A stretch of DNA of 56,820 nucleotides from Verrucomicrobiia bacterium (lineage in GTDB: Bacteria > Verrucomicrobiota > Verrucomicrobiia > Limisphaerales > Fontisphaeraceae), in contig JAOAIT010000001.1 of NCBI GenBank assembly GCA_026414565.1, positions 1-56,820 of the forward strand, read 5' to 3'. The translations under genes and the position numbers were made by a program. The notes beneath the pieces are model-generated. The model searched no databases, had not been told where the DNA came from, and worked only from the letters and a program-made list of their open reading frames with translations. Of this stretch, positions 1-43,195 are shown in pieces (the stretch's first letter is position 1; every line of letters begins with the position of its first letter).

Positions 1-139
1 ACGCAACCAGGGGTCGCCGCGCCCACCAGAGGTGGAGCGTGGAGATGTGCCCCTTGCGGACAGATTTTTCCCGCGAGGCTTCCTCGCTGATGGCCTCGAT
101 GGGCAGGTAGTCCTCAATTAGTCGTTTGTCGTCGGTCAT
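1..139 (-). CDS. DUF1156 DNA methyltransferase, N-terminal fragment
   Basis: Reading the minus strand from the ATG at 139 gives a protein that begins [18 protein letters not shown] and, some 35 residues on, reads HLWWARRPL before leaving the window. The [13 protein letters not shown] start followed by [15 protein letters not shown] is the hallmark of the DUF1156 family, predicted site-specific DNA methyltransferases found in defence islands, often with DUF499 ATPases and SNF2 helicases. Its ATG overlaps the stop codon of the upstream UvrD-type gene (ATGA), so it is the next gene of the same operon. Only 46 codons are visible; the catalytic methylase motifs lie outside the window. The family call is strong, while a defence role is inferred from context. 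Confidence 0.85.
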
Positions 140-2205
140 AGATTATTGATCTCGGCTACGATTGACTGAGCCTCGGAGGCCGTGAGGGGGCCAGACCTCT
201 TAACCGTTGGCACAGACATTTCATTTAAGAATTGAGAGCGGCCCAACCTGAGAACGGGCTTATTGGCGACGGCCTGAGCCTGAAATCCCGTCCGGGTGCC
301 GTTGTGCGTGATGATGCAGCACGCCTTCGTGCGCGTTGCCGACACGTAAAAGAGCCGACGCTGCTCGATCAGCAGCCCGGTGGCTTTAAGGGCCTTGAAA
401 TTTGGAATGATTCCTTGCTCAGCGGCTGGAATAAAGACCACGCTCCCGCTCAGCCCCTTCGCACCGTGCATCGTTAGAATGCGGACTTTCTTTGGCGTGG
501 GCGTTGGAGTGGGAGTCGGACTACTGCCTGCCACGCGCTCGGCAACCGCCTTCAAGATGGCTTCCTGCTCTGATTCGTTACCGGCTCCGAGAAACAGACA
601 CAGTTCATCGAGCGTCATGTCACCCGGAAGACCTCCTGCCAGGGTTGTCCACACCCCCACATGCGTTGTGGCTTTTGCTCCAGAGCTGAATACCTGGGCT
701 GCCAGGATCGCCTCGATGTCCTTGGCGTGGGCCGAGACCGAATCGTCCATTGCCCACCCACTGATGGCTGAGCACACCTGGATAACACGATTGACGGCAG
801 TTGCCCCACGGCTCGCAAGCCAAGCTGGAGGCGCGGCCAGATAGAACATTTCGCGGAAGTTTTGATTATTGGTGATGCACGCATCGCCGATGTCCTTCGC
901 GGTCTTCTGGCCAACCCCCGACAATAGACCCAGCAGGTCGCGGTAGGCGGGGTAGTCCTCCTCCCCGGACTTTTGGTCACGGAGGATTCGGAGGACGGAA
1001 TAGACGGCTCTGATAGCCTCGTGTTCGTCAACAAAGCTCAGCGCCTTGGGAGGTTCAAAGGGCACTTTGTTGTCCCTGAGCGCCTTGGTGATGAGGTCGA
1101 GTTGGAGCTTGCGGTTGCAGATCAGCACCAGGATTTCATCCTCGCGGTTCGCCATACCCGCATTGATGAGCTCGCGGCAGCTCAGCGCGATGAACTGCGC
1201 CTCCTGCTGGGGTGACGGGAGTTGCCACACGTGAACACGACCTTGCACAGGTGGTGAAGCGTTCGCGTAGAGGGGCACCATCGTTTTTGCGATTCTGGCC
1301 GGGTTGCGCTGAATGAGCCGATCCGCCGCAGAGAGAATCGCAGGGGTGCAGCGAAAACAATCCGTGAGCACATGGGTCTTGGAGTTTGGATACGTGCTAT
1401 CGAACGTCACGATCCCATCGGGGTTGGCGTGGCGGAAGGAGTAAATGCTCTGGTCGTCATCACCAGCGATGAAAAGGACTGTTTGCCCCTGGCAAAGTAG
1501 CCGGATGAACTCCTGGTCGCAGGAGTTCAGGTCTTGGTATTCGTCAACGATCAAATGGCTGATCGTGGGCAACGAGGTCACTTGGAGTGAGCCTTGCCTA
1601 AGCGCATCCACGCATTTGAAAATGACTTCACCTGGGAGCACGCAGCTATAGAGATTCGTCCGCGAAGCGTGGAAGCTGATGAAGCCTTGGATTTCCGCAG
1701 GAGTGATCTTTGCCTGCGCAATAGACTGCGGATTGAGTGTTTGCCATTGCGCGTCATGGGCCAGCCGGATTTCGCCAGCCCTGCTTGGCGAACAACCGAG
1801 CACAAATGCCAACTCCTGATCGTAAACGATTCTCTGTTCCCATTCGTCCAACAGCATGGGATTGCCGGGGTAGCTGTTGAGTAGGTTGGCCCGCCGAAGG
1901 ATTGACAGAGCCAGGGAATGCATCGTGGACACCCTCACTTTCTCCGCCAGAGCCGCGCAGGGCTGGGTCGAGCAAAACTTCACGATCCGCAGTCTGAGTT
2001 CGGCACAGGTCGCTCTTGTGAAGGAGATCACAAAAACAGTTTCGGGGGCGACGCCGTGGTTCAAGAGGTTCGCAACTCGCTTTTCGATGGTGCCTGTCTT
2101 CCCCGTGCCCGGCCCCGCAACCAACCGCACCTGCGGGGCCGTGTCCTGAGCCGCCGTCCACTGCTTTTGGTCTGCCGCTTGTCTTTGTGCTGGGGTTATG
2201 GGCAT
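136..2205 (-). CDS. UvrD/Rep-type superfamily 1 DNA helicase
   Basis: This 689-residue protein carries the helicase signatures of superfamily 1A. They are a Walker A GPGTGKT at residues 31-37, [10 protein letters not shown] (motif Ia) at about 61-70, DEYQD (Walker B) at 221-225, [11 protein letters not shown] (motif III) at 248-258, TMHGAKG (motif V) near 578 and YVSATR (motif VI) near 620. A Pro-Thr repeat of about ten residues (near 562) precedes the last motor motifs. The protein should be a 3'-5' ATP-dependent DNA translocase. It has no obvious nuclease domain, unlike AddA or RecB. It lies 10 bases downstream of the SNF2 gene and overlaps the DUF1156 start by ATGA, so it is in the middle of the predicted defence operon rather than being a housekeeping uvrD. 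Confidence 0.9.
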
Positions 2206-2215
2206 AGGTGGTCGG

Positions 2216-5200
2216 TCAGTTGCATTTCTTTGCCGCTTGCTCGATGGCGTCGGCGGGGATGTCGAAATACCGCGCCGCCACGACCTCCTTTTTCGCGTGG
2301 TCGAGATGTTTCGCCGGGTTCTGGATGCAGAGCGGGGTCGGGTCGGGATTGTTCAGCGGGTTCCAGACCACGTAGAGCCAGTAGCTATCGCCGAGCTGCA
2401 ACGCCCGATACCACTCGTTGACCGTGAGGCGGATCGTCGCGCCCTTCCGGCGTCCCTTGACCTCGATCCTGCGGATGCCCTTGACCGGATCACGGTAGCC
2501 GGTCTGCGGATCGGCGGGACCGTGGCTGCGGATGTCAAAGCCGATCTTCAGGTGCCCGACCCGCTCGCATTCCCAGCCGCGTGATTGCTCGAAGGCGACC
2601 ACCACGTCCTCAGCAGCCAGCTCACTTTTGCGGTTCAGCTCCGGCTCCAGTTCGTCCGTGAAATCTGCCGGTGCCCCCGTCTCGGTCGCGGGAACCACCA
2701 GGGCGGTTGCGATGTGGCGCACGGGGCCGGTGCGAGCAATGGCCAGCCGTTCCAGACCGGCCATGCGCTCCTGGCGGGTGCGCTTCAAGTCGGCCAGGTC
2801 GTTCTCGGCGCGTTGCCGGGCGATGGCGACCTCCGTTGATCCCAACTGCTCCCGCTGGCGTAGAGTCATCACTCGATCCTGGGCGGCACGGATGCGGGCA
2901 TCGAAGGACTTTTGCAGGTAGTCCCGGCAGACCTGGACAAAATGGAGGCGCTCCTCCTGACAGAGCTGGCGGCGCTCGCTCTGATAGGTGCTCTTGATGA
3001 AATCCATCGCCGCGCCGGGATCCACGGGCGTGACGGTCACAGGGGGTTTAGGGTGGGCTGGCAGGTCGAGAAGGCAGTCGGCAGGCACAACTGCGAACCG
3101 GTCGGCTGCTTCACCCGTGAAGTCCTCCCGGACGGCCACGACTTCGCCGTAAAGATTGAGACTGTCGCCCTTGGTGTTCTGGCCGCGAACCGTGATCTCG
3201 AAAAAGTGCAGGCAGTAGGGCACCGGGGCCGTGGCGTCCACATAGACCGCGGTCCCGCCTGCAAGGCCAGCCAGCTTTTCGTTTAGTTTTTCGTCCACGA
3301 CCGCGTAGAGCGGATGGCCGGGGCCGAGCAGGACGGCATCCACATGCTGGTCGAGGTCGAGATGATCCTTGTGGAACGTGATCTTCCGGTAGGTGGTATC
3401 GGGCTTCCCCAACCGTCGAACGGCTGCCAGGCGGTCGGAGCGGAGATCGGCCAGGACGTGCTCGATCCGCCAGAGGCCATCAGCCCGTGGCTCGATTTTG
3501 AGGCCGACTTCCTTGCAGGACTTCACGAATTGATCCTCGACGTAGCGCGGCATCAACCGGCGCTCCTCGGCCTCGACGTTGGCCTTCTGGAAGCCGGAGA
3601 AATCCACGTTGGCGCGAGCCAGGGCGATGCCCGTGGCCTTCTCGTATTGGAGCAGTTTCTGCGGATCGACCTTCTCGATCTGGTCCAGGTATTCCTCCAG
3701 TCGGCGCGGATCGTGAGCCGCTTCGCGCAGGATTTCCGGCAGGTTGACATCATTGAGCGACAGAACTTCGCCTACCACATCGAAGATGCGGTCGGCCAGC
3801 ACTGCTCGCATCTGCTCCATTTTCTCCAGCAGGCGTTGCAGAATGCGACCCTCGATCACCGGCTGGCCTTCCTCGGACTCCGAGGCCACGAAGTTGAAAG
3901 CGTGGACATCGCGCTCCTGGCCGATGCGATGGATGCGGCCCAGGCGCTGCTCCAACCGCGTCGGATTCCAGGGCAGGTCGTAGTTCACCATCAGCCGGCA
4001 GAACTGCAAGTTGATGCCTTCGCCAGCGGCCTCGGTTGCGACGCAGACCTGGCGCGACGTGCGGAAGTCTTCCTGGGCGCGTTTACGCTCGTGGGGGTTC
4101 ATGCCGCCGTGGATTTCACAGGTGGTGTAGCCCCACTTTTTCAAATGCTCGCACAGGTGGTTCAGTGTGTCCCGGTGCTCGGTGAAGATCAGCAGCTTGC
4201 CCCGGCCATCGGCCAGCTCGCCGAACTCCGCTCGTTTCAGGCACTCGTGGAGGGCGGTCAGCTTGGAGTCCGCCGCCAGCTCTTTCACGCGCCGGGCACG
4301 GGACAGGAGTTCCTGTAGGGCGGCGATCTCGCTCCGTAGCTGGTCGAGTTCCACGGCGGATGTAAACTCGTCCACGAGGAGATCGCGCTCGGCATCGTCC
4401 AGGTCGTCTTCGTCCTGCTCGGCGTCTGTCAAACGCCCCTGGAGCTGGGCCAGGCGCTTGGCGCGTTGAGCCGGGGGCAGGTTTTCGAGTTCTTCGAGTA
4501 ACTCCTGCTGCTTCTGGAGGCGGCGGCGGATGGACTCGTAGATCGCCATCGTCGAGCTGGCCAGCCGCCGTTGGAGCACTGTCCGGGCGAGCGCCACGCT
4601 CTGCTTCTTCTTGCCCGTGGCTTGGGGCAGGAAGTCGTTGATGTAGGCGGTAACCGCTTTGTAGAGGTCGTATTCGTCGCGGTTCAACCGGAACGTAATC
4701 GTGTGCGCGTGGCGGTCGGGGAACAGGCGGCGGCCGTCGAGGTCTTTCAGGTCTTCTTTTAACCGCCGCAATGCCCACGGGCAGTCCGGCCCCAGTCGAA
4801 GGATGTCGCGGCGGATTTCACCGGCCTTGTCCGCAAGCCGGTGGGGTTCCGGGAACAGATCGGGATCAAGCAGCCGGACGAAGTGGGCGAAGCGATCATC
4901 GTCGCCGTGGTGCGGCGTGGCGGTCAGGAGCACAACGTGGTCGGCCTCGGCGGTCAGCTTCTCCGCGAGCTGGTAGCGTTTGGTTTTTTCGGCTTCGTCA
5001 CCCCGCGAGGACGACCGCTTCGTGTAGGCCGAGCACTTGTGCGCCTCATCAATGATGACCAAATCCCAGTGCTGCTGCCAGACCCGCTCCCGAACTTCGT
5101 CTTGTTTGGCGTAGTCCAGCGAGGCGACCACCTGCGACGACCGTTGCCACGGATTGGTGAGCTGCTGCTGGTCAACGGCGGAGAAGATGATGTCGAACGA

Positions 5201-5725
5201 CTCACCGAACCACCGGAGCATTTCGTCCTGCCACTGGATGGTCAGCGGCGACGGACACAGGATGAGGATGCGCTCAATGGCCTCCCGGAGCTTCATCTCC
5301 TTGATGAGCAGCCCGGCCATGATCGTCTTGCCCGCGCCGGGATCATCTGCGAGCAGGAACCGCAGCCGGGGCTGCGGCAGCATTTTAATGTAAACAGCTT
5401 CGATCTGGTGCGGTAGCGTGCGGATGCCGGACAGGCTGACGGCGAAATGTTTGTCGTGGGCGTAGGCGAGCCGGATGCGGGCGGATTCGACCAGCAGGCG
5501 CAACTGCTCGGCATTGACGGTCGCCGCCTTGGCCTCGACCGGCGCGGCTGCCCCGGCCAGCGCAGCGGCTTCCTCGGCGGTGATGACGGCCTCGTCCAGG
5601 GAACCATCAGGTAGCCGCACGCGGCACTCGAATCCTTTGCCCAGAGGACGCGCCGCCTCCAGGATCACCGGAACATCGAAGTGACCCGGCAGGCTGATTT
5701 GTTTTCCGATGGGCAACTCGGTCAT
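2216..5725 (-). CDS. SNF2-family helicase with C-terminal DUF3883 domain (defence-associated)
   Basis: This 1169-residue protein has a SNF2/superfamily 2 motor. Motif I is DDPGAGKT at 127-134, motif II is DEAH at 226-229, motif III is TATPHH, and the second RecA lobe carries TEAAGEGINLQF and EQRLGRIHRIGQ. The last 130 or so residues (GFDIRSH, IEVKGR, LYVVWN) match DUF3883, a domain with restriction-endonuclease-like features that is common in defence helicases. An in-frame ATG 15 codons upstream is possible, but the ATG at 5725 overlaps the stop of the upstream AbiEi-like gene (ATGA), so I chose it. It resembles the large SNF2 helicases (DrmD-like and relatives) that accompany DNA methylases in DISARM and DUF499/DUF1156-type loci. 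Which subtype it belongs to cannot be settled without a profile search. Confidence 0.88.
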   Translation of the reverse strand: MTELPIGKQISLPGHFDVPVILEAARPLGKGFECRVRLPDGSLDEAVITAEEAAALAGAAAPVEAKAATVNAEQLRLLVESARIRLAYAHDKHFAVSLSGIRTLPHQIEAVYIKMLPQPRLRFLLADDPGAGKTIMAGLLIKEMKLREAIERILILCPSPLTIQWQDEMLRWFGESFDIIFSAVDQQQLTNPWQRSSQVVASLDYAKQDEVRERVWQQHWDLVIIDEAHKCSAYTKRSSSRGDEAEKTKRYQLAEKLTAEADHVVLLTATPHHGDDDRFAHFVRLLDPDLFPEPHRLADKAGEIRRDILRLGPDCPWALRRLKEDLKDLDGRRLFPDRHAHTITFRLNRDEYDLYKAVTAYINDFLPQATGKKKQSVALARTVLQRRLASSTMAIYESIRRRLQKQQELLEELENLPPAQRAKRLAQLQGRLTDAEQDEDDLDDAERDLLVDEFTSAVELDQLRSEIAALQELLSRARRVKELAADSKLTALHECLKRAEFGELADGRGKLLIFTEHRDTLNHLCEHLKKWGYTTCEIHGGMNPHERKRAQEDFRTSRQVCVATEAAGEGINLQFCRLMVNYDLPWNPTRLEQRLGRIHRIGQERDVHAFNFVASESEEGQPVIEGRILQRLLEKMEQMRAVLADRIFDVVGEVLSLNDVNLPEILREAAHDPRRLEEYLDQIEKVDPQKLLQYEKATGIALARANVDFSGFQKANVEAEERRLMPRYVEDQFVKSCKEVGLKIEPRADGLWRIEHVLADLRSDRLAAVRRLGKPDTTYRKITFHKDHLDLDQHVDAVLLGPGHPLYAVVDEKLNEKLAGLAGGTAVYVDATAPVPYCLHFFEITVRGQNTKGDSLNLYGEVVAVREDFTGEAADRFAVVPADCLLDLPAHPKPPVTVTPVDPGAAMDFIKSTYQSERRQLCQEERLHFVQVCRDYLQKSFDARIRAAQDRVMTLRQREQLGSTEVAIARQRAENDLADLKRTRQERMAGLERLAIARTGPVRHIATALVVPATETGAPADFTDELEPELNRKSELAAEDVVVAFEQSRGWECERVGHLKIGFDIRSHGPADPQTGYRDPVKGIRRIEVKGRRKGATIRLTVNEWYRALQLGDSYWLYVVWNPLNNPDPTPLCIQNPAKHLDHAKKEVVAARYFDIPADAIEQAAKKCN

Positions 5726-6327
5726 GCAAGGGCCTCCAGGTAGCGCCGGATGACGCTCTCGACTCGGCACACTTTGGCGTATTTCAGAATGTCATCGACT
5801 GGGCATTTCCGCCGCCGCAAGCATTCGCGCAGCGCATCCAGGGCCACGTCCAGGCCGATCTTGCTGCGATACTTAACGCAATCGACGACCGTTTTGACGG
5901 GGTTGGTGATCGGAACGCTGACGCCCTCGATCACATGCCGATCCAAACCTGTTTTGAGTGAAACATCCGGGAATCGGACTACACGAAGCGGCAGACCTTC
6001 GATGGTCGGTCGCCGGGCTTTCCTGTCAACTGCTACCCAGACGAGGTCGGGCGCTTCGGGCAGCAACCCATGAAAATTCAGCGCCGAGATCAGGCAGATG
6101 ATGCCGTTCGGGATCAACTTGGAAACCGTGGCCAGGTCGTGGTGAACGCTGGGTTTGCGATTGGGGAGCCGGTAAACACCCCGTGCCGACTGGACGAGCC
6201 GACCTTGATCGAGAAGGCGGCGCAGGTAAACCGGGGCAATCCCGTGCCCAGCGAGGTCTTTGGGCCGCACGACCCCGATCTGCTCTACGAGCTTCAAAGC
6301 TGCTTCGGTTTTGGTCATCGCCTTCAT
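5722..6327 (-). CDS. AbiEi-family winged-helix protein (type IV antitoxin-like regulator)
   Basis: The 201-residue product has an N-terminal winged helix (about residues 8-55, including RPKDLAGHGIAPVYLRRLLDQGRLV and GVYRL) and the typical AbiEi middle section with LISALNFHGLLPE and an NPVKTVVDCVKYR stretch. AbiEi proteins are antitoxins that repress their own operon; the partner toxin AbiEii is a nucleotidyltransferase. No AbiEii gene follows here. The gene instead heads an operon with the SNF2 helicase, so regulation of the defence genes is the more likely job. ATG at 6327 is used; an in-frame ATG at 6318 is an alternative with a slightly better purine tract. A strong promoter and an inverted repeat lie just upstream. 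Confidence 0.8.
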   Translation of the reverse strand: MKAMTKTEAALKLVEQIGVVRPKDLAGHGIAPVYLRRLLDQGRLVQSARGVYRLPNRKPSVHHDLATVSKLIPNGIICLISALNFHGLLPEAPDLVWVAVDRKARRPTIEGLPLRVVRFPDVSLKTGLDRHVIEGVSVPITNPVKTVVDCVKYRSKIGLDVALDALRECLRRRKCPVDDILKYAKVCRVESVIRRYLEALA

Positions 6328-6340
6328 CTGTTACAATGTA

Positions 6341-6363
6341 TCGGCGGCAAGCGCATCCGCCGA
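6341..6363. promoter_or_regulatory. 23-bp inverted repeat, candidate operator
   Basis: TCGGCGG at 6341-6347 and its exact complement CCGCCGA at 6357-6363 are separated by 9 bases. The repeat starts about 4 bases downstream of the -10 hexamer of the promoter driving the AbiEi-like gene, so it covers the expected transcription start. AbiEi antitoxins are known to bind inverted repeats in their own promoters, which makes autoregulation here plausible. A leader RNA hairpin is the alternative. Confidence 0.5.
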
Positions 6364-6366
6364 CGA

Positions 6367-6395
6367 TTTATAGCGATTCCAGAAGGCATGGTCAA
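6367..6395 (-). promoter_or_regulatory. sigma-70-type promoter of the defence operon
   Basis: On the minus strand a -35 box TTGACC (6390-6395) is followed by exactly 17 bases and a -10 box TATAAA (6367-6372). The expected start site falls near 6360, about 33 bases before the ATG of the AbiEi-like gene. This is the best match to a housekeeping promoter that I found in the island. Confidence 0.65.
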
Positions 6396-6520
6396 TCACG
6401 GATCGGAGGTTTTTCTGCTCGCGCTGAACGGCTTAACCGCAGGCGAACGCGAGGGCGGTGGGTGTCGATGGAAAGGGCAGTGCTCCGCGAAACCGACACC
6501 GCGTTTACAATTTTGGTTCT

Positions 6521-6832
6521 ATGTGGACCGAAACTATGATCTGGCGAAGAAGACGAACGACACCAACCGTCACGGAGCTGAACCCTGTCCAAAGGGCACT
6601 TGACCGCGACCCCGCCCTGAGTCGGCTGCTGGGGCCGAAGACCGTGACCATCCGTAAACGAACTGGCGAACCGGTCTCTTTCTCGCCCCAAACCGTATCC
6701 GTCGCCGAGGCGATGATGGCCACCAAATTGAACCCGCAGCGAGCGGCACAGTGGGAGGTTTTGGCTGCGGCTGGCCGGGTGCTGGGTTTCCTCCGCAAGC
6801 CCAGCTCGGACATCGCCTTGCCGGGCGCGTAG
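6521..6832 (+). CDS. hypothetical protein of the island
   Basis: This reading frame begins MWTETMIWRRRR and encodes 103 residues with a balanced composition, for example ALDRDPALSRLLG followed by VTIRKRTGEPVSF and later AAQWEVLAAAGRVLGFLRK. I recognise no family. It is divergent from the AbiEi operon. No good ribosome-binding site precedes the ATG at 6521; ATG 6536 is in frame. A long open frame also exists on the opposite strand, but its composition looks non-coding. This is possibly a small DNA-binding or accessory protein; coding status is uncertain. Confidence 0.35.
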   Translation: MWTETMIWRRRRTTPTVTELNPVQRALDRDPALSRLLGPKTVTIRKRTGEPVSFSPQTVSVAEAMMATKLNPQRAAQWEVLAAAGRVLGFLRKPSSDIALPGA

Positions 6833-7033
6833 GTAGATCGTGGCCCGGTTGTTGGCCGCGACATCTAAGATCCTCATTGAACCAACAGTTGCGTATGTCA
6901 GGCGGACACAGCCATTCACCCCGCCGCCGTTGCCTGTGGCGCTCAGCGCCAGGGAGATCACGGCGGGTTCAATGTTGAACGTGTCCCGCAGCCGCCTGCC
7001 GATGACGAACTGCGGGAGCTGATACTTGAAATT

Positions 7034-7288
7034 TTGAACTTTGAGGGCGACTATCCGACCAGAATAGTTGATGTCGTCAATCGGGTTGGAGCGTGGACGC
7101 CCGCTCTAAGCAGACGCGACCGCGAGCGGGCCAAGCTCGCCGCGTTTCGGAGGATTGGCCGGATGATTCGGAACAAAGCACTACGGCGCGTCTCCAGGAA
7201 CTTCGTTCAGATCGAACCCAAAAGAGAGCAGCCACAAACCCCAGCACCGCTTCTCGATCCCGCCGATCTGCCGGAGCCGCGAGTCTGA
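7034..7288 (+). CDS. small winged-helix-like protein, start unresolved
   Basis: The C-terminal 84 residues read from a TTG at 7034 and look genuinely coding. They contain VDVVNRVGAWTPALSRRDR and then KLAAFRRIGRMIRNKALRRV, like a winged helix with a recognition helix and wing. The same frame stays open back to 6881 and encodes DDELRELILEIL just before 7034, so the natural start is probably upstream, but there is no ATG or GTG in that stretch. Either an unusual start codon is used or the 5' end was lost to a mutation. It is plus strand, inside the island, and I assign no function beyond possible DNA binding. Confidence 0.4.
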   Translation: MNFEGDYPTRIVDVVNRVGAWTPALSRRDRERAKLAAFRRIGRMIRNKALRRVSRNFVQIEPKREQPQTPAPLLDPADLPEPRV

Positions 7289-7629
7289 TCGTTGTCCACG
7301 TCCTCGCGCCGGGAGGGCGTTTGGGAACGCGACTACGCACCGATACGCTGCCACCACCGCAAGTCCATGCCGATGAACTTGACATGAGCCGTAACGCTGC
7401 GTGCCTCGGTTCACCGTGTCCGCGAAGCGCGTCAAGGGTTCTGTTCTCGAATACGCCGGTGGGTTTTTCTACCAGAGAGCAGCGGGGCCATAGCGGCGCC
7501 CTGGTCAATCGCAGGCATTCAGGTGGGACTCAGCCTCCGTCTGCTGCGTTCGGCTCGTCCAGGGGCAATTACGCGCAAAGGAAGGGCGCTCTTGATTATG
7601 GTCGGACTGGTGGTAGCTCCTGTTCCGGC
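7289..7629. other. gene-free stretch inside the island
   Basis: This stretch separates the plus-strand winged-helix-like gene from the 3' end of the minus-strand replication initiator gene. Open frames exist on both strands, but all have the arginine/serine-rich composition of non-coding frames, and none has a recognisable motif or ribosome-binding site. I see no hairpin with a T-run. Confidence 0.4.
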
Positions 7630-8754
7630 TCAACACGGCAATATGCGCCCGGAAGATACGTCGTTGCTGTGGCGCTCACCATCTCCAGACTCTAGCTCCA
7701 AGGGGCTGCCGAGGTCTTCGCCGATGACCGTGAACAATCGCTCGTCCAGGAACTCCTCCAGCTTGTTCAGGATCATACGCCGATGGCGCTCGGTTTGGCG
7801 CTCCTTTTTGGGCACCCCGATAAAGTCCTTCCGGGCGTGGTGGGCACTACCGAAATAGTCGTGTTGGAATCGCTTGTGGGTAAAAACCCGATACCCAGCG
7901 ATGAGCTGATCCACACACCCGTTGAACAGCCCTGCAACCTGCTCACGGTCGTCTTTGCAGAACTTGTCCCACTCGGTGAAATACCGCTTTGAGAAGTCGA
8001 TGGGCTTCGTCTGGTAGTCCAAGATGCGAGCGAAGTCGGCCTCGGTTTTGATGCCGAACGTGCGCGTGGATGGTTCCAGGAGTGGTCTCTCCGCCATGCT
8101 GTCCGGCCCAAGGGCCTGCCACGCCTGCTGACGCTGGTCTATGAGGCTCTGCCGCACGAGTCCGATGATCTCCTGGATGTGTCCTTGGTTAAAGTTGTCA
8201 GCGACAACCACGGCGTGAGCGTGTGCTTGGGCCTGCGGGGCGGGAAAGTATGAAATTACCTCGAACTCCTCCAAATAGATAACCGCATCGAAGACACCCA
8301 TTTCGACCATCTGTCTGAGGGCGTGGCGGCACGCCTGCCAGTAGTGGGACAGGACATCGGAAACCCCGTCGCCGAGCTGGTGGTGACCGTGGAAACTGAT
8401 CGTCTCGAACCACCACCGGTGCCGGAAGAACGCTGGCAGGAACTTCCCCAGGATGTCCATTCGGGTGATATGGGCGCAATACGGACACACACGCCAATAC
8501 CGGCACCGATGCCGTGCAAACCCGCACCAGAAGAAGTATGACCCTTTCCCCGAAAACGGTGACAACAGCAGGATGTTCGCGTTCTCCGCGTAGTGCTGGT
8601 CTGCCCTGTCGAATCGCTGAGGGTAACGCTCGATCCTGCTCTCCGTTACCTCCGCCCATGACTTGAGCGGACGGGGGAACAGGTGCCGGTGCTGACGCAT
8701 TTCGTCGAGGTCACAGCGGTTCAGGTCGCATAGGTCGGTGAGAGGGGGATGCAC
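7630..8754 (-). CDS. HUH-type rolling-circle replication initiator (Rep)
   Basis: The 374-residue protein shows the layout of plasmid Rep_1-type initiators. A cysteine cluster comes first (C77, C84, C90, C93 in CGFARHRC and RVCPYC). A motif 1-like strand follows (WWFETISFHGHH), then an HUH motif HAHAVVVAD (His178, His180) and a YxxK motif Y247-Q-T-K250 followed by PIDFSKRYF. In this family the Tyr of YxxK nicks the origin and stays bound to the DNA 5' end. The GTG at 8754 is preceded by GGAAGGG nine bases upstream, so I prefer it; ATG 8700 is an alternative. Together with the integrase and excisionase remnants it suggests an integrative element that could replicate after excision. The family call rests on motifs only. 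Confidence 0.6.
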   Translation of the reverse strand: MHPPLTDLCDLNRCDLDEMRQHRHLFPRPLKSWAEVTESRIERYPQRFDRADQHYAENANILLLSPFSGKGSYFFWCGFARHRCRYWRVCPYCAHITRMDILGKFLPAFFRHRWWFETISFHGHHQLGDGVSDVLSHYWQACRHALRQMVEMGVFDAVIYLEEFEVISYFPAPQAQAHAHAVVVADNFNQGHIQEIIGLVRQSLIDQRQQAWQALGPDSMAERPLLEPSTRTFGIKTEADFARILDYQTKPIDFSKRYFTEWDKFCKDDREQVAGLFNGCVDQLIAGYRVFTHKRFQHDYFGSAHHARKDFIGVPKKERQTERHRRMILNKLEEFLDERLFTVIGEDLGSPLELESGDGERHSNDVSSGRILPC

Positions 8755-8773
8755 GCACTGATACCCTTCCTTA

Positions 8774-8817
8774 CTCTATTATCGAGGCGGGGTTCCCGTC
8801 CCAGGGAGGTCTGGGAC
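8774..8817 (-). other. candidate double-strand origin (hairpin plus nick-like sequence)
   Basis: A perfect 7-bp inverted repeat, GTCCCAG-N6-CTGGGAC (8798-8817), lies about 45 bases upstream of the rep start. On the minus strand it is followed, toward rep, by CTCGATAATAGAG (about 8774-8786). That resembles the CTTGATAATAAG nick region known from pC194/pUB110-type rolling-circle plasmids, whose initiators carry the same HUH/YxxK motifs. Placement just upstream of rep is typical of such origins. The match is short, so this is a suggestion rather than an identification. Confidence 0.35.
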
Positions 8818-9046
8818 ATTTGGAACCTGCCGGGGATTGGCCGCGCTTCGGCGGTGCCGGAGAAAGGGGTGCGTGCTCCCCATCGCCCATGCCTGAGCTT
8901 GTGGCACGCACCGAAGCGCGAAAACTGATGATCCGCACGCATGTTTCTTCTCTCCGTCAGGCCCACGGACACGATGCCCATGAGCCTCACTAACTACGGA
9001 GAAGAACGGCACGGCGAGCGATACTGCGGCTGTGACGGCGGGAAGT

Positions 9047-9060
9047 TTTTGTAAACAAAA
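9047..9060. repeat. TTTTGTAAACAAAA palindromic site, copy 1
   Basis: This copy is TTTTGT-AA-ACAAAA, an uninterrupted 6-bp inverted repeat around a central AA. Related copies occur at 9385-9398 and, as a tandem pair, at 9948-9980. It lies upstream of rep on the minus strand and may be an operator or initiator site of the element. Confidence 0.5.
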
Positions 9061-9384
9061 CCTGTCGTGCGCGACAGGGGTGTGGCTGCCAAACCGCAAC
9101 CCGGATCAAAGCGTTTGACTGAACCACTCAACGTCGAAGTTCCTGGTGCGCCCGGCGCGTCCCGACCGGCGCGAGGGCCTGGATGTCAGGGGATGAGCAC
9201 CGAATTGTGCCTCACTGCCTCCGGGCCACGAACAGGCTCAAGGGCGGGCTGGCGTCGGTTGCGAGTTGGTCAAGGGTGAGGCTCCGCAAATGCCGACGAG
9301 TTGCGACCCGGTGTGACCCGGCACGGCACATCGACCGTGCATGACAGAGGGAGATGCACGCGGAAAGACCTCCTCGAATGAGAG

Positions 9385-9398
9385 TTTTGTAAACAATT
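9385..9398. repeat. TTTTGTAAACAATT site, copy 2
   Basis: This copy shares TTTTGTAAACAA exactly with copy 1 and diverges only in the last two bases. It is placed just upstream (minus strand) of the diverged rep-leader look-alike, between the excisionase-like gene and rep. Confidence 0.5.
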
Positions 9399-9691
9399 TC
9401 GCCCACGCACCACGGCGGATAGGGAGTCCAACGCGCCCGCGTCCGTGGCTGCGAGATGTGCCGCCGTGGGCCGGAGTGCCTGAAATACAGCGCGGACGAT
9501 CTGGCCTACACCGGGGAACGGCAACGGGTGCCTAGGGAGTGCCATGCCTCGTCGAGTTCGGCGGTGGAGCTGCATCCCTCCTGCCCGGTCAGCGCCGAAG
9601 GGAGCGGCATGTGGTGGTGGTCGTTGCGAAGTTGCACGCCATTGCTCTGATGGGCGTCATGGTCGATCTCAGGGGGATCGTCCCGTGAGGC

Positions 9692-9898
9692 TCAACCTCT
9701 CACGACGCGGCGTTTGCCCTCCAGAAAGTCTATTACATCCTGTGGCTTGAAGCGCACGACATTGCCGATCTTGTAGTCCGGCAATCCCTCGCGCAGCATC
9801 CAGTTCTCCACCGTCCGCGTCCCGACACCACAGAAGCTCGCCACATCATCTTTTCACCAATCCAGCTTATCGTTGCCGTTCTGAACGTGCTCAGACAT
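9692..9898 (-). pseudogene. excisionase-like HTH gene interrupted by an in-frame TGA
   Basis: From the ATG at 9898 the minus strand encodes MSEHVQNGNDKLDW, a TGA at 9856-9854, and then KDDVASFCGVGTRTVENWM and later GLPDYKIGNVVRFKPQDVIDFL to a stop at 9692. The second part is a typical MerR-like helix-turn-helix of the excisionase/HTH_17 type. These proteins direct excision together with a tyrosine integrase or regulate element genes. The TGA removes the start of helix 1; a GTG four codons later could still give a shortened product. It sits between the integrase and rep in the same orientation, the classic int-xis-rep order. A sequencing error cannot be excluded. Confidence 0.6.
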
Positions 9899-9947
9899 GT
9901 AAGAACGAACGAGATTGCCGTGGGACGTTTGGGAATGGCGTCACCTT

Positions 9948-9980
9948 CTTTTTCTAAACAAGTTTTTCGTAAACAAGTTT
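9948..9980. repeat. tandem pair of TTT(C/G)TAAACAAGTTT sites
   Basis: CTTTTTCTAAACAAGTTT and TTTTTCGTAAACAAGTTT lie in tandem with about a 16-base period. They are 50-80 bases upstream of the excisionase-like ATG on the minus strand. They share the TAAACAA core with the sites at 9047 and 9385 and fall where a promoter or operator for that gene would be. Confidence 0.45.
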
Positions 9981-10067
9981 GCGTTGCTTGCTAAAGCACC
10001 GATCCTGGGAATGAAAAACCACGCCAGGGGCGGGGTTGGAGTCCGGTGTAGTCGTCCACTTGGGCAC

Positions 10068-11329
10068 TTAGCTGTTGATTGCCTCCTCCGGTTGCTCCTC
10101 GATGATCGGATTCCAGTTTTTCGGAGGGCGGATGGCGAACCACTTCTTCGCCATCGCCTTGGTCACGCATTTCAGGTAGTTGCTCTTGATGATGTCCACG
10201 GAGTTCCCACTTTCCAGAGCAACGAGATTTATGTCGCCGGTGTAGGCGACGCGGTAGCTGATGCCGCTGTCCCCAAGCACATTCTTGGACCATTCGACAC
10301 CGACGCGATCCGCGAATTTGTTCCACTGGTTTCCCAAGCGTGCGAATGGGGAGACTGGACCGGTTTCTTTTTGGAACGGCTTCAACCACTGCTTCAGGTT
10401 CGGGGAGATGGGAGGCAACCGCCGCACTTTCTTCTTGGCCGTGCGTGCGAGGATTTCAATGTAGCCCTCCCAAAGGTTGATGCGGCTCCAGTCGAGGCGC
10501 TCGATCTCGGCGGTGCGGATGGCCGTGAACCCACCGATTGCCAACAGCGGAACCAGTCGCGCTGGCACGGAGGTCAGCAGCTTCTCAAACTCCTCCGGCG
10601 TGAAGACCCGGACTTCTCGCGGGATCAAGTTTGGTTTGCTGATGGCTGCCACGCCATCATGGTCTTTGGGGACATAGCCGCGCTTTCGGGCGAAGTTGAA
10701 TAGAGTGCCAATGGCGTCCCGGATGTTCTTCCGGTAGTGGCCGTGTGCGCCAGTGGCGTCGAGGTAGGCTTCGATGTCTCTGGTTCTCAAGGAGGCTATC
10801 GGACATTTGAAAGCCTCGGCGAATTTCCCAGTCGATTCCGTAAGTCCCGGATGTAAGGGGCGGAACGACCATTCTTAATGCGGTCATTGACCAGTTCCTC
10901 GACAACCTCCGCCACGAGCTTGGAGATCACGTTGGCCGAATGCTCAACATAAGACCTTGCGGCTTCTGCCAGGGAAACGCCTTTCAATGTCGTGCGGGCT
11001 GTTACCGCGTCCATGACGAGGATGTCGAGATCGAGGCCAGTGGGCCGCGCCGCCTCCAAGGCCCGTTCATAGATCAGGCGCTCCCGACCATTCACCATCA
11101 GGCCGGGCAGCTCGCGTTTCTCGAACTTCTTGGCCAGCTTCTCGGCTTCGGCTTCTGCTGTTTGCCGGTCGGGGAACATCGGGCGCTGGCGTCGTCCTTC
11201 CTCGTCATAGTAGCTGACGGTGTAGTAGTCGCGCCCAGAGTTCGGGGTGTGGTAAACCCTGACCGAGGGCTTCGGCGTGATCTCTAGTTTTGTAAACTTT
11301 TCTTCGTTGCTGACGTTTGTATTTTCCAT
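10068..11329 (-). pseudogene. tyrosine recombinase/integrase, frameshifted and catalytically degenerate
   Basis: Two abutting frames make one integrase. The N-terminal part starts MENTNVSNEEKFTK (ATG 11329) and runs to YIRDLRNRLG. The remainder continues as FAEAFKCPIASLRTRDIEAYL in the next frame. A one-base loss in an A-run (plus-strand TTT at 10824-10826) explains the shift. The core-binding part and the catalytic domain are recognisable: TAIRTAEIERLDW contains Arg I and the terminal LESGNS...NYLK contains the Tyr. The box II region, normally HxLRHS, reads KNVLGDSGISYR, so the His, the Arg and the next His are replaced. The protein would be inactive even if the frame were restored. It lies on the 3' side of tRNA-Gly, the usual place for an island integrase. 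Confidence 0.85.
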
Positions 11330-11391
11330 GCCGGACAGAACCGATTTCGCGGCGGTCTTCCGGCTGTCTTGCCCGGCAATCTGGCCGGGAT

Positions 11392-11411
11392 TTGTCAGCA
11401 AGTTGTCAGCA
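11392..11411. repeat. two direct TTGTCAGCA repeats, possible integrase arm sites
   Basis: TTGTCAGCA occurs at 11392-11400 and again at 11403-11411, an 11-base period (about one helical turn). The pair lies between the integrase start and the tRNA-Gly 3' end. Short direct repeats in this position often bind the N-terminal arm domain of tyrosine integrases. The function is inferred from position only. Confidence 0.35.
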
Positions 11412-11469
11412 GGCTTTTATCACCCGCATTGAAACTCGCGTAAGTTATTGGAAATGAAGAAGAAGGAAT

Positions 11470-11543
11470 TGGAGCGGGTGAAGGGAATCGAACCCTCGTC
11501 TCAGGCTTGGGAAGCCCGCGTTCTACCATTGAACCACACCCGC
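11470..11543 (-). tRNA. tRNA-Gly(CCC)
   Basis: The minus strand folds as a cloverleaf. The acceptor pairs GCGGGTG with CACCCGC, the anticodon stem-loop is CGGGC-TTCCCAA-GCCTG with anticodon CCC, and the T arm loop is TTCGATT. The discriminator is T, and CCA is encoded at 11472-11470. Its 3' end faces the integrase remnant, so it is the likely integration target of the island to the left. Confidence 0.93.
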
Positions 11544-11680
11544 GTGGTCAAGGGTTATGTATAAGGCAAGTGGCGGGGGTTGACAAGGGTTTATTCAGGG
11601 GGGATGTTTTGGGGAGCGGGAAGCGGGGGCAGGGCGGCGGCTGCCGGAATCCGGCGCGGGGCGTGGCCGGGAGGGCAGGC

Positions 11681-12373
11681 TCAGGCGGGGGCGGTGGGGA
11701 GGGTGCGGGTGTCCAGCCCGGCGGCGTCGGCGCCGAAGCTGAGGGCGCGGTAGCGGCTGGCGCGGAAGGTGTTGCTCCAGTGGTCGGGGCTCAGGCCGGC
11801 TTTGCGTTTGAGCTGGCGGAGGAAGTCGTGTTTGTCAGGGAGGGTTTCCCAAACGGAGGGGAGGAAGGTGGCATGGGCAAAGCCGTCTTCGATGAGGAGG
11901 CCGTCCACGCCCGGTTCGAGCTGGGCGAGCAGTTCGGCTTCGGCCTGGCAGGGCAACGGCACGGGGGGGCTGAGGATGGAGAGGTGGAGGTGGAGGCCGG
12001 GCAGTTCTTTTTCTTCGAGCGGGGCAAAGCGGGTGTCGTGAAAGGCGGCATGCCAGGCAAAGCGGGCGGTGGCGGCGACCAGGGGATGGGAGGGTTCGAG
12101 GGTGCCGATGCAGCCGCGCAGATGGTTTTCATGGTGCAAGGTGACAAAGACGGCCCACGGTTCGCGCAAGGGCGGGGGATAGGCGCGGGGTTCGACGGCG
12201 AGGGGGCGGCCGTGCCGAAGGCCGGATTCGATGGAGGCCTTGGCCACGGTGAGCAGCAGGCGTTGCTCGGCCGGGGTGAGTGTGGGCAGGCGCACGGAAG
12301 GGGGGCCGCAGTTTTCCGGCGCGGGCGGGAGTGGCTCCCGGTCGTTGGGCGAGGCGTCAGGGGCGGGGTGCAT
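11681..12373 (-). CDS. amrA: AMMECR1-domain protein (AmmeMemoRadiSam system protein A)
   Basis: The 230-residue protein has the AMMECR1 fold signature LRGCIGTLEPSHPL near the middle, preceded by PWAVFVTLHHENH and followed by LHLHLSILSPP, GLLIEDGFAHATFLPSVWETL and HDFLRQLKRKAGL. AMMECR1 proteins are conserved from archaea to humans, and in many prokaryotes they are encoded beside MEMO and a radical SAM enzyme. Their biochemical role is unsettled. The ATG at 12373 lies inside the end of the MEMO gene (17-base overlap), the third gene of a translationally coupled unit. The frame extends much farther upstream, but that part only mirrors the MEMO gene in another frame, so I reject the longer start. 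Confidence 0.9.
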   Translation of the reverse strand: MHPAPDASPNDREPLPPAPENCGPPSVRLPTLTPAEQRLLLTVAKASIESGLRHGRPLAVEPRAYPPPLREPWAVFVTLHHENHLRGCIGTLEPSHPLVAATARFAWHAAFHDTRFAPLEEKELPGLHLHLSILSPPVPLPCQAEAELLAQLEPGVDGLLIEDGFAHATFLPSVWETLPDKHDFLRQLKRKAGLSPDHWSNTFRASRYRALSFGADAAGLDTRTLPTAPA

Positions 12374-13199
12374 CAGGGGGAGGCGGGGGGCAGAAGGCAA
12401 AGGCGCCGTAGCCGACCACGCGGTCTTTGCGGCCGGCGGTGTCGCCGGAGTTGCGCAGGTCGAGGGTGAGGGGGTGGAGGTGTTGGTCGTCCGCCACCTG
12501 GAGCAGCCCTTGAATGGCCAGGCGGCCGCAGGCCTGGGTGGGATGAATCTGGCCGGGGGCCAGGTCTTCGATGGCCTCGGCGGTGGCGCGGTCGAGTTTT
12601 TGGGCGGTGCGGTAATCGTAGTAGTGGCTGAGGTCGCTGCTGACGACAAGGCGGGTTTCAGGCCCGCCCCAGACGGTGGCCAGCGCTTCGGCCACGGTGT
12701 CATCGTCCACTTCCCCGGTGAGGATGGGCACGATTTTCACGGGGCCGAGGGTGGCGTGGACAAAGGCCAGTTCAACTTCCAGGGCGTGTTCCTCGCGATG
12801 GGCGTCGGCGGAGAAATGGACGCCGGGCAGGCGGGCCAGTTGCTCGATGGCTTCGGCGTCCACGATGAAACGGCCGGCCGGGGTGTCCCATTGGCCGTGG
12901 GGGCTGAGGGCGAGGCCCTGGAAGTAACAGTGATGGGAAGGGCCGATGAGGATGACGCGCTGGACCTGGCCACGCAGGGGGCGCCAGGGTTTGAAGGCGG
13001 AGCCGGCGATGGGGCCGGAGTAGAGGTAGCCGGCATGGGGCGCGATGATGGCTTTGGGGGGCGGGGTCGGGTCGCCGAGGCCGGCGTCCACATGTTGTTG
13101 CACCTCCTGGGCCAAGGCCCGGGGTTGGGCGGGATAAAACATGCCGGCCACCGCGGGCTCGCGCACGGCGTGGGGGTCGAAAGCGGGGTGATTTTTCAT
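12357..13199 (-). CDS. amrB: MEMO1-family protein (AmmeMemoRadiSam system protein B)
   Basis: This 280-residue protein has VAGMFYPAQP near the start, IIAPHAGYLYSG (His55), IGPSHHCYF and SSDLSHYYDY. These are the conserved His-containing motifs of MEMO proteins, which resemble class III non-haem iron dioxygenases and bind metal in the human protein. In prokaryotes the family pairs with AMMECR1 and a radical SAM protein. ATG 13199 overlaps the stop of the radical SAM gene as ATGA. The 3' end overlaps the AMMECR1 gene. Coupled translation suggests that the three proteins act together on an unknown substrate. Confidence 0.92.
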   Translation of the reverse strand: MKNHPAFDPHAVREPAVAGMFYPAQPRALAQEVQQHVDAGLGDPTPPPKAIIAPHAGYLYSGPIAGSAFKPWRPLRGQVQRVILIGPSHHCYFQGLALSPHGQWDTPAGRFIVDAEAIEQLARLPGVHFSADAHREEHALEVELAFVHATLGPVKIVPILTGEVDDDTVAEALATVWGGPETRLVVSSDLSHYYDYRTAQKLDRATAEAIEDLAPGQIHPTQACGRLAIQGLLQVADDQHLHPLTLDLRNSGDTAGRKDRVVGYGAFAFCPPPPPDAPRP

Positions 13200-14362
13200 G
13201 AGCCGGACAGGTGGATGGGGCGTGGCACGCGCCAGCCCCCGGGCTGAGGGGCGGCGGCCCCGCCGTTGGCGCGCCACAGGCCGGGGAGGCGGGTCTGGCA
13301 TTCGGGACAGGCGCCCTCGGCGGTGAGGCGGTTGGCGAGGACGGTGAAGCCGCAGCGGGCGATGACGGTGGCCTTGCAATGCGGGCAGCGGGTGTTTTCC
13401 CATTCGCCGGTGCGGCCGGGCAGGTTGCCGGCGTACACGTAGCGCAGGCCGGCCTCGGCGCCGATTTCCGCGGCGCGGAGCAAATCCGCCGCGGCGGTGC
13501 GGCGTCGGTCCGTCATCTTGTAATCGGGGTGGAAGGCGGTGACATGCCAGGGGATGTCGCGGCTGAGGCCGGCCAGGAAGCGCGTCAGCTCGCGCAGTTC
13601 CTGCGGTGAATCATTGAAGCCCGGCACCAGGAGCGTGACCACCTCGAGCCACAGGCCGCGCTGGCACAACTGTTCAAGTGTCGTGAGGACACTTTTCAAG
13701 GGGCAGCCCAGCGAGCGATAGGCGCGGTCATTGAAGCCTTTGAGGTCCACCTTATAGGCCGCCAGATGGGGTTGCAGGAAATCCAGCACCTCCGGCGTGG
13801 CGTTGCCGTTGGAGACAAAGGCGCAGAGCAGGCCGGCCTGGCGGGCGGCGGCAAACACCGCGGCGGCCCATTCGGCGGTGATGAGCGGCTCGTTGTAACT
13901 GGACACCACCACCTGGGCGCCTTCGCGGCGGGCGGCGTGGACGAGCTGCGCGGGCGTCACCTCCTGCACCGGCGCGCCGGCGGCCGGATCGCGCAGGGCC
14001 TGGCTGGTGAGCCAGTTTTGGCAGTAGCTGCAGTGGAGATCACAGCCCAACATGCCGAAGGTGAGGGCATCAGCCCCGGGCAGGACGTGGAAGAACGGTT
14101 TTTTTTCAATGGGATCACACGCCACGCCGGCCACATAACCAAAGGGCACCCGCAGCTCGCCCCCCCGGTTGAAGCGCACCTTGCAAATGCCGCGGCGTCC
14201 GGCGGGGATGCGGCAGCGATGGCCGCAGGCGAGGCAGCGCACCACGTCCCCCTCCTTCAGATACAGGCGGCCGGGGGCCGTCAGGCGGTCCAGCCGCCCG
14301 CCCAGGGTTTGCTCCTGCTCGTCCGGCAAGGCCGGTTCGGCCTGGTGAAAGGGAGCGGTCAT
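13196..14362 (-). CDS. amrS: AmmeMemoRadiSam system radical SAM enzyme
   Basis: The 388-residue enzyme carries the radical SAM cluster motif C107-DLH-C111-SY-C114. An N-terminal cysteine set (CLACGHRC and GIC, C43/C46/C50/C60) and a C-terminal CPHC...CPEC pair may bind zinc or further clusters. GMLGCDLHCSYCQN and SYNEPLI match the PflA-like AmrS family, formerly called AmmeMemoRadiSam system radical SAM. The iron-sulfur cluster would cleave S-adenosylmethionine, but the target is unknown. It is the first gene of the three-gene unit and overlaps the MEMO gene by ATGA. A candidate promoter lies upstream at 14376-14408. Confidence 0.92.
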   Translation of the reverse strand: MTAPFHQAEPALPDEQEQTLGGRLDRLTAPGRLYLKEGDVVRCLACGHRCRIPAGRRGICKVRFNRGGELRVPFGYVAGVACDPIEKKPFFHVLPGADALTFGMLGCDLHCSYCQNWLTSQALRDPAAGAPVQEVTPAQLVHAARREGAQVVVSSYNEPLITAEWAAAVFAAARQAGLLCAFVSNGNATPEVLDFLQPHLAAYKVDLKGFNDRAYRSLGCPLKSVLTTLEQLCQRGLWLEVVTLLVPGFNDSPQELRELTRFLAGLSRDIPWHVTAFHPDYKMTDRRRTAAADLLRAAEIGAEAGLRYVYAGNLPGRTGEWENTRCPHCKATVIARCGFTVLANRLTAEGACPECQTRLPGLWRANGGAAAPQPGGWRVPRPIHLSGS

Positions 14363-14375
14363 GGATGTACGCTGC

Positions 14376-14408
14376 TATACAGTACCCCCAAACCCCGCCC
14401 CAAGTCAA
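14376..14408 (-). promoter_or_regulatory. candidate promoter of the AmrS-MEMO-AMMECR1 unit
   Basis: On the minus strand TTGACT (14403-14408) is followed, after a G-rich spacer of about 18 bases, by TACTGTATA (14376-14384). This sits 14 bases before the radical SAM start codon, so the leader would be very short. The -10 match is imperfect. Confidence 0.3.
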
Positions 14409-14459
14409 AGGGGGTGGGGGGGCGCGCCGTGAGCCTGGACAGGGGCCGGGTGCGGGGGC

Positions 14460-41820: not shown

Positions 41821-41914
<94 letters not shown>

Positions 41915-42105
41915 CTTGTTTCTGCCACAATCCCTCCGCCCACCGCGGCCGGTAATCTGCCCTCGCGCTTGCCCTTGCAAGGCGTCCAGTTCCATGCTGC
42001 CCGCTGATGTTAATTGATGGGAAGCAGCCCCAGGAAAAAGCGGTCATCTCCTTTTCTCCCGCCGGCTGCCGCCGCGGGGATGGGCTTAAGCAGGGTTTCC
42101 GCGTA

Positions 42106-42738
42106 CTATTGCCCAAACAGGTGGGACGGTCTGACACTATAGACTGCTGCCAGAAGGCATAGACTGGTCGCCAGCAACAACTCTCCGTCCGGCTCAGGCA
42201 CAGGCAATACGGCCACATTATCAAGCAGGGGTCCATAAGCATCGTTTTGCTGGCTTTTGAACCACAGGGTTGCGCTGGAGCCTGAGGCAACAAACTGGAA
42301 GCTGATGGGGATCCAGTCCAAGTTATAACGCGTTTGGCCCGCACTGTTCACCTCATAATCATGCTGGAAGGAGTCCACGGACACGCGCACTTGTTTGTAC
42401 TGGGGTGGGCCCTCCGGATTGCCGGCCAGATTGAAGGTCACGGCATAAGTCATTCCGGGAATGGTGGAAAAAGTTTGCTGGACTCCTCCCGCATCATAAC
42501 CACTCAAATCCAAGCATCGGTTTCCGTCAAAGGCGTCCCACGGGGGCCCCAACACCTCGACCGAGTGCCCCGTCACTATCCAACCGTTGATGTCAGTGCT
42601 CCCTCCGCCCACGAAAACTGCATCACCCACGATCGGAGGGCCTAATTCGAAACTGCCGTTGATAATTGCGCCCCACCCAAAAGGGACGGCGGCCCCTACT
42701 AAAGAAATCCATGCCACAAAAAGAAGAGACTTTTTCAT
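42106..42738 (-). CDS. exported choice-of-anchor protein with PEP-CTERM-like end
   Basis: ATG 42738 is preceded by AAGGAGC at the right distance. The 210-residue protein has a signal peptide (KKSLLFVAWISLVGAAVPFGWG). A beta-rich body with ATINGSFELGP-like start (IINGSFELGPP), YDAGGVQQTFSTIPGMTYAVTFNLAGN and a closing LLDNVAVLPVPEP follow. A hydrophobic helix and a basic tail (VRPSHLFGQ) come last. NGSFE and the 'VPEP-helix-basic' end match choice-of-anchor C proteins sorted by the PEP-CTERM/exosortase system. Base composition is more AT-rich than the neighbours, suggesting acquisition. It stands alone downstream of tRNA-Ser. Confidence 0.75.
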   Translation of the reverse strand: MKKSLLFVAWISLVGAAVPFGWGAIINGSFELGPPIVGDAVFVGGGSTDINGWIVTGHSVEVLGPPWDAFDGNRCLDLSGYDAGGVQQTFSTIPGMTYAVTFNLAGNPEGPPQYKQVRVSVDSFQHDYEVNSAGQTRYNLDWIPISFQFVASGSSATLWFKSQQNDAYGPLLDNVAVLPVPEPDGELLLATSLCLLAAVYSVRPSHLFGQ

Positions 42739-43195
42739 AGCATGCTCCTTTCCGTTGATGAACTTCATCGGCCTATTTTGGCAACGAACATGGTTGCTGA
42801 TCTATGCGGATTACCGATCGGTATACGATAAAAATATTATTATGTTGACACGTCAAGCATTTTTTTGCAGTAATCACATCGTTGGTCATCCCTTCAAGCC
42901 CTCCCCCACTTCAACAAAATGGCCACGCTCCGTGGGGCAGAAGATGCAGCGGTTGGCCGAAAGAAATCGATCTTGGCCGCGAAACATCGCCAGGCCGTCT
43001 GCGTGCCCTGAGTACCCGAAATCCATGCCTCATGGAGATGGGCAGTAGGGCGAACGAGCCGCTGCTTTTTTTAACCAACTCGCCTGCCCGGCTGCTTTGC
43101 TGAGCCTTGGCCAGCCGGAATCATTTACGGGTTTGAGCGGGTGGCGGGGCAGGTCCTCGTCCGGCCCGCTGTCCCCGCCATGCCGCTTCGGCGCT
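42739..43195. other. AT-richer non-coding stretch
   Basis: No gene is supported between the anchor-protein start and the proS stop. It holds a perfect 12-bp palindrome TACCGATCGGTA at 42812-42823. About 30 bases further, a minus-strand TTGACG (near 42855-42860) lies within an inverted repeat TTGAC-GT-GTCAA and could be the -35 box of the anchor-protein gene. The -10 box is unclear. The rest shows no structure that I can name. Confidence 0.4.

Follow-up and report, generated by a model that had tools for sequence, protein, structure and literature searches.

The rep gene and its conserved residues

The DNA analysed here (the window, 56,820 nucleotides) is the whole of contig JAOAIT010000001.1 (C1) from a Verrucomicrobiia bacterium. 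Located on its minus strand are, in order, a tRNA-Gly (CCC) gene (11470..11543), a tyrosine integrase gene (int, 10068..11401), an xis-like helix-turn-helix gene (9692..9898) and an open reading frame (ORF) that encodes a protein of 374 amino acids (rep, 7630..8754), a candidate replication initiator of the HUH type as judged from the ORF, its motifs and a family comparison. The island that contains rep is cut by the contig edge at position 1. The rep ORF begins with GTG, has 374 codons and no internal stops, and a Shine-Dalgarno-like sequence, AAGGAAGGG, is located 9 nt upstream of the GTG. A sequence-only reading had recognised in this ORF a cysteine cluster, an HUH motif and a tyrosine motif, in that order, and all of the residues named are indeed present at the positions given, within an intact frame.

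With hmmscan at E values up to 1, the window protein matches no family in Pfam, PHROGs or NCBIfam, and its two matches among PDB sequences (E values of 0.98 and 1.2) are weak and irrelevant. With tblastn it has no match among the 72,556 plasmid records and 50,697 phage records, and peptide-pattern searches of genome and viral contigs, a family-level search with the window protein alone and two further scans of viral sequences with profiles revealed no real match or relative. In the source genome the only match to the window protein is its own copy, and there is no match to Rep_1 (PF01446) at an E value of 0.01. Weak matches at three other loci (L002-L004) in 387 genomes of the phylum were attributed to chance on inspection of their reading frames.

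Relatives were recovered through profiles. A search with PF01446 matched 15 of the 387 genomes at an E value of 0.01, of which 6 exceeded the family cut-off. Five of the proteins found in this way were aligned with the window protein, and this alignment, searched against 384 genomes of the class, matched 14, one of the matches being the protein at locus L036. This protein, encoded in another genome, aligns with the window protein across 317 columns at 30% identity (BLASTP E value of 2e-39 in a single comparison) and retains every one of the residues named, so that the motifs go beyond chance. Among 196 genomes of the order a two-member profile then picked out 5, and a three-member profile matched 10 of 320, the source genome included. 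Nine of these were judged real: G000, G419, G438, G835, G844 and G849, with incomplete copies in G701, G754 and G777. The tenth, G689, has none of the motifs and was dropped. One family member, L039, is encoded in record CAMBHS010000090.1, from a metagenome-assembled genome, and G419 belongs to the same order as the source genome, in a different family. The window protein is 21-37% identical to its relatives, and the family is new to the copies of Pfam, PHROGs and NCBIfam that were used, its mechanism class being known.

Conservation was evaluated in eight aligned sequences, six of them long members and the other two fragments, with the split G754 copy left out. All seven sequences that reach the region retain the four cysteines (C77, C84, C90 and C93; 8476..8526), a cluster that is a likely candidate for metal binding, and seven of seven also retain E163 (8266..8268), P171, H178, Y247, K250, P251, I252 and Y258. 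The HUH motif, His178-Ala-His180 (8215..8223), has its first histidine in all seven sequences and its second in six. Tyr247 and Lys250 (Y247-Q-T-K250; 8005..8016) are part of a candidate nucleophile motif, YxxKPI, that is followed by a second conserved tyrosine, Tyr258 (7981..7983), 11 residues after Tyr247. From its position 15 residues before His178, Glu163 is a possible counterpart of the metal-binding Glu142 of pC194, a residue whose role is taken from PMC5703833.

Similarity to Rep_1-like initiators

In profile comparisons the family resembles Rep_1-like HUH initiators. When compared by hhalign with 11 Rep_1-like proteins that have no cysteine cluster at the corresponding place, and with four others, the three-member profile scored 42.6 and 37.0, respectively. 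With gap columns removed, so that only columns filled in the window protein were used, the scores were 44.5 and 36.6, and none of 150 shuffles reached them (best 19.9 and 23.7). Seven of the 11 and one of the four (L028-L035) had been found through a profile (A1) that includes the window protein, and the comparison was therefore repeated with only the Pfam-found proteins, four and three, respectively. The scores were then 36.2 and 42.5, reached by none of 60 shuffles in either case (best 22.8 and 24.2). The HUH motif is in register in both comparisons, and YxxKP is in register with the first set.

PMC5703833 describes Tyr214, Glu142 and Glu210 of pC194 RepA as essential residues that are conserved throughout the pC194 family. 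At the position of Glu210, four residues before the tyrosine, the seven members have R, N, E, S, S, A and N. Because this position varies, and because there is no Pfam match, the protein is not filed under Rep_1 proper; its sequence is that of a distant relative of Rep_1 and, in this reading, it would work like one. Of the earlier designation, a pC194/pUB110-type Rep, the HUH-type initiator survives, based on motif conservation within the family and profile similarity to Rep_1-like proteins. Membership of that type does not: the Rep_1 model of Pfam is unmatched by three members at E values up to 10, and the glutamate is absent from six of the seven.

Two AlphaFold models were made, one from the single sequence and one from a two-row alignment. 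In the second (mean pLDDT 35.7), residues 115-215 form a strand, helix, strand, strand and helix, with H178 and H180 on a strand. When this poor model was searched against the PDB with Foldseek, ISDra2 TnpA, an HUH transposase, accounted for five of the best 10 rows, among many ferredoxin-like folds, with a best E value of 3.3e-3 and none at 1e-3 or below. VIA-align placed an adenoviral protein (presumably E4, from the title of the entry) and a poly(A) polymerase on top (Z scores of 8.2 and 8.1), both of them non-HUH proteins, and HUH transposases, with Z scores of 6.6-7.3, are tied with ribosomal and ACT folds, among other ferredoxin-like folds. In the viral listing the two rows below 1e-3 belong to proteins that are unnamed or uncharacterised; a few Rep proteins follow further down. 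These fold searches, made with a predicted structure, are suggestive at most. The recurrence of ISDra2 TnpA would fit an HUH transposase, of the IS200/IS605 Y1 type or the IS91 type, that had landed in islands. IS91-type proteins also have an N-terminal cysteine cluster and HxH, and the protein at L012 is one that we take to be of this type. However, the window protein has no Y1_Tnp or Y2_Tnp match in Pfam, the Foldseek E value is not below 1e-3, and the gene is positioned behind integrase sequence in all eight loci with a flank on that side and has a single match in the source genome; a transposase is very improbable.

An island next to a tRNA gene

The eight loci for which the int-side flank is available are the window, L037, L044, L045, L046, L077, L078 and L079; two further pieces, from G777, start at a contig edge. 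Integrase-like sequence is present upstream of rep in all eight, as remnants in L046 and L077, with open integrase reading frames in L037, L044, L045 and L078. In seven of the eight a tRNA gene adjoins the integrase, for tRNA-Gly in the window and L044, Thr in L037, Asp in L045 and L046, and Ser in L077 and L078; none was detected in the 19 kb available for L079. The tRNA gene of the window, identified by ARAGORN and Rfam, is the likely attachment site. The order tRNA, int, xis, rep described for the window therefore holds: the tRNA is real, relatives have int and rep by a tRNA gene, and in the window xis separates the two. L044 also has xis at this place, and the same order, with tRNA-Gly and a truncated rep. 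The window, L044, L045 and L046 have the integrase on the 3′-side of the tRNA gene. In L037 (1078-1152), L077 (6075-6163) and L078 (4427-4519) it is on the 5′-side, and the L037 and L078 integrases are more alike than either is to the L044/L045 type. In the G419 island, the gene immediately upstream of rep (L037, 4356-6362) encodes a 668-amino-acid protein that has no Pfam match and resembles, by eye, a phage-type primase/helicase.

The copy in the window is probably immobile, a remnant with an intact rep. A frameshift located between about 10874 and 10826 divides its integrase gene, and where L044 has ALRHSFISYR, the window has VLGDSGISYR, with loss of the Arg-His from a stretch that we take to be box II. 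The xis-like gene has an internal TGA (9854-9856), downstream of which a GTG (9842-9844) could start a shortened form; aligned past this stop, its product is 34% identical to the xis-like protein of L044. The frameshift and the changed box II in the integrase, with the stop within xis, probably leave this copy stranded. The gene order that had suggested an int-xis-rep integrative element is borne out; the sequence-only reading did not mention the damage to int and xis, and self-excision is unlikely here. With int and xis broken, one member (L073) without His180, and incomplete copies in G701 and G754, the HUH site might no longer be catalytic, rep then being a regulator of the island or its cargo, or simply a decaying gene. 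The window ORF is, however, intact, and it is residues of active-site type that stand out as conserved, so we regard such a loss of activity as very doubtful.

The boundary at the tRNA gene was evaluated by comparison with a congener, G001, that has a single-contig chromosome. The two sequences are 79.9% identical over 11469-14410, and in 39 kb compared, homology ends at the 3′-end of the tRNA gene, as expected for insertion at that point. Rearrangement is involved as well: the ortholog of the next G001 gene is found in the source genome at position 33904 of another contig (C7), near pheST-like genes, and the region has therefore been rearranged and a clean empty site cannot be claimed. The only other match to the tRNA end in the source genome is a tRNA-Gly (TCC) gene. 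Two 12-nt matches to the tRNA end in G438 were judged, from their places, to be chance. Elsewhere in the window, a second tRNA gene (Ser; 41821-41913) is located by a dip in GC content (53.5% at 42001-43000) that could possibly mark another insertion.

Between rep and the contig edge there are genes for a UvrD-like helicase (136-2205), an SNF2 helicase (2216-5770; best PADLOC match HmaA, E value of 8.7e-194) and, by the latter, an AbiEi-like protein (5722-6327). They probably form a defence cargo, truncated at the contig edge, and from their position would be in the same element as rep. In the L045 island, DNA methylases and a type I specificity subunit are encoded behind rep, cargo that would also suit a role in transfer, in which rep would encode an HUH nickase, similar to a relaxase, that initiates mobilisation through foreign conjugation machinery, instead of vegetative replication or in addition to it. 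HUH nickases can have both roles: the review PMC5714925 describes the Reps of pC194 and pUB110 in the context of transfer mediated by ICEBs1. The window protein has, however, no match to a relaxase family in Pfam, PHROGs or NCBIfam, and among the eight window ORFs scanned, in an island cut by the contig edge, no coupling protein or FtsK-type protein was matched in Pfam; a function in transfer is decidedly unlikely.

Candidate origin sites were sought in the window. The minus strand has five sites that resemble TTGTTTACAAAA in the stretch from 9047 to 11299: two iteron-like copies (9047..9058 and 9385..9396), two adjacent copies with one mismatch each (9950-9961 and 9965-9976, together 9950..9976) and a fifth (11288..11299), inside the int reading frame, with two mismatches over 12 positions and none over the core 10. 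With up to two mismatches allowed there are nine such sites in the window, one of them the other-strand reading at 9047, versus 1.0 expected. Similarly, GTTTACAAAA occurs six times with up to one mismatch, versus 0.89 expected, and five of these are between 9047 and 11297. The TTGTTTACAAAA repeats may serve to bind Rep, Int or Xis. Two hairpins upstream of rep on the minus strand, both picked after a scan, are weak origin candidates (8789..8830, z -3.55, rank 2%; 8948..8992, z -3.01, rank 0.8%), and these ranks, among 45-nt stretches of the window, are not outstanding. The pC194-type nick motif is CTTGATA; this sequence, which may not be that of the present family, is absent from 1-11470.

Proposed replication and relation to known systems

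Taken together, the ORF most likely encodes an HUH-type endonuclease, of a family that is unmatched in the libraries and distantly related to Rep_1, that would start rolling-circle replication of an island excised from its site of insertion at a tRNA gene, the window containing a probably stranded copy. As in rolling-circle replication generally, the process would have the following course. Int and Xis would cut the island out of the tRNA gene to give a circle, and Rep would bind an origin near its own gene, for which the five TTGTTTACAAAA-like repeats and the two hairpins are candidates. Two histidines, perhaps with Glu163, would hold a divalent metal, and Tyr247 would nick one strand and stay bound to its 5′-end. 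The host polymerase, with a helicase of the UvrD/PcrA type, would then extend from the 3′-OH, and a second strand transfer would release the copied circle.

Several observations weigh against this reading. Taken alone, the window protein scored 20.0 and 20.6 in the hhalign comparisons, values that were matched by 4 of 60 and 2 of 60 shuffles and so are not significant, and the link to Rep_1-like proteins therefore rests on the family profile. In a first run of that profile comparison, with gapped columns, one of 200 shuffles exceeded the real score in each comparison (133.5 and 136.9), and the cause was not found; YxxK is, in addition, unaligned in the comparison with the second set. At E values up to 10, no Pfam family is matched by the window protein or two relatives, the general-base glutamate is kept in one of seven members, and L073 has Asn in place of His180. 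The AlphaFold models have low confidence (mean pLDDT 34.5 and 35.7), so that the HUH fold is putative, and in the second Tyr247 is within a predicted strand (245-251), where the review PMC5714925 has the YxxK motif of HUH proteins always in a helix. At the level of the element, no duplication of an att site was detected among the contigs searched, the far ends of the islands being beyond the contigs or not located, and the TTGTTTACAAAA repeats are specific to the window and absent from relatives. The lack of significance for the window protein alone and the position of Tyr247 in a strand have slightly lowered our confidence in rolling-circle initiation, which we still favour.

The variation at the Glu210 position also raises the idea that a separate family of HUH initiators has replaced the Glu-based termination of pC194, using two tyrosines, the second being Tyr258 (i+11), or two subunits, to generate closed circles without hydrolysis dependent on glutamate; this appears unlikely. 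If rolling-circle initiation by this family is confirmed, the order of tRNA, int and rep constitutes a recurring and recognisable replication module for a bacterial order, missed by the family libraries used, and natural variants that lack a residue held to be essential in the pC194 family would make the chemistry of rolling-circle termination testable. Among the papers listed in searches of open-access literature, as judged from titles and the openings of abstracts, none dealt with such elements in this phylum.

Among known systems, Rep-Arvir of archaeal viruses and plasmids is similarly an initiator of partly integrated elements that has only recently been recognised, whereas it is archaeal and has a TBP-like fold, as in Rep_trans, rather than an HUH fold, according to PMC13107129. 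The integrative and conjugative elements (ICEs) of actinomycetes, pSAM2 and its relatives with RepSA initiators, resemble the window, L044, L045 and L046 in having the island on the 3′-side of a tRNA gene. They differ in that the islands of L037, L077 and L078 are on the 5′-side and that no FtsK-type Tra protein was matched among the eight window ORFs scanned.

Also among the nearest known systems are Rep_1 (PF01446), the family of RepA of pC194 and RepU of pUB110, and Rep_1-like proteins of the same phylum. Five of the latter, from the same class (L007, L008, L009, L011 and L028; open frames of 426-665 codons), have HxHxH and YxxKP, with the motifs in register with those of the window family, but they have no cysteine cluster at the aligned place and all five have Glu at -4, the opposite of the window family in both respects. 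In Rep_1 a cysteine cluster precedes the HUH motif, and such a cluster is visible in Rep_1-like L005. The window family shares with Rep_1 this order, HUH and then YxxK after the cysteine cluster, together with the profile similarity to Rep_1-like proteins of the phylum. It is set apart from Rep_1 by the unmatched Pfam model and the absence of Glu at -4 in six of seven members, and by features of its own, namely a conserved Pro-Ile after YxxK, a second tyrosine at +11 and a location in integrated islands.
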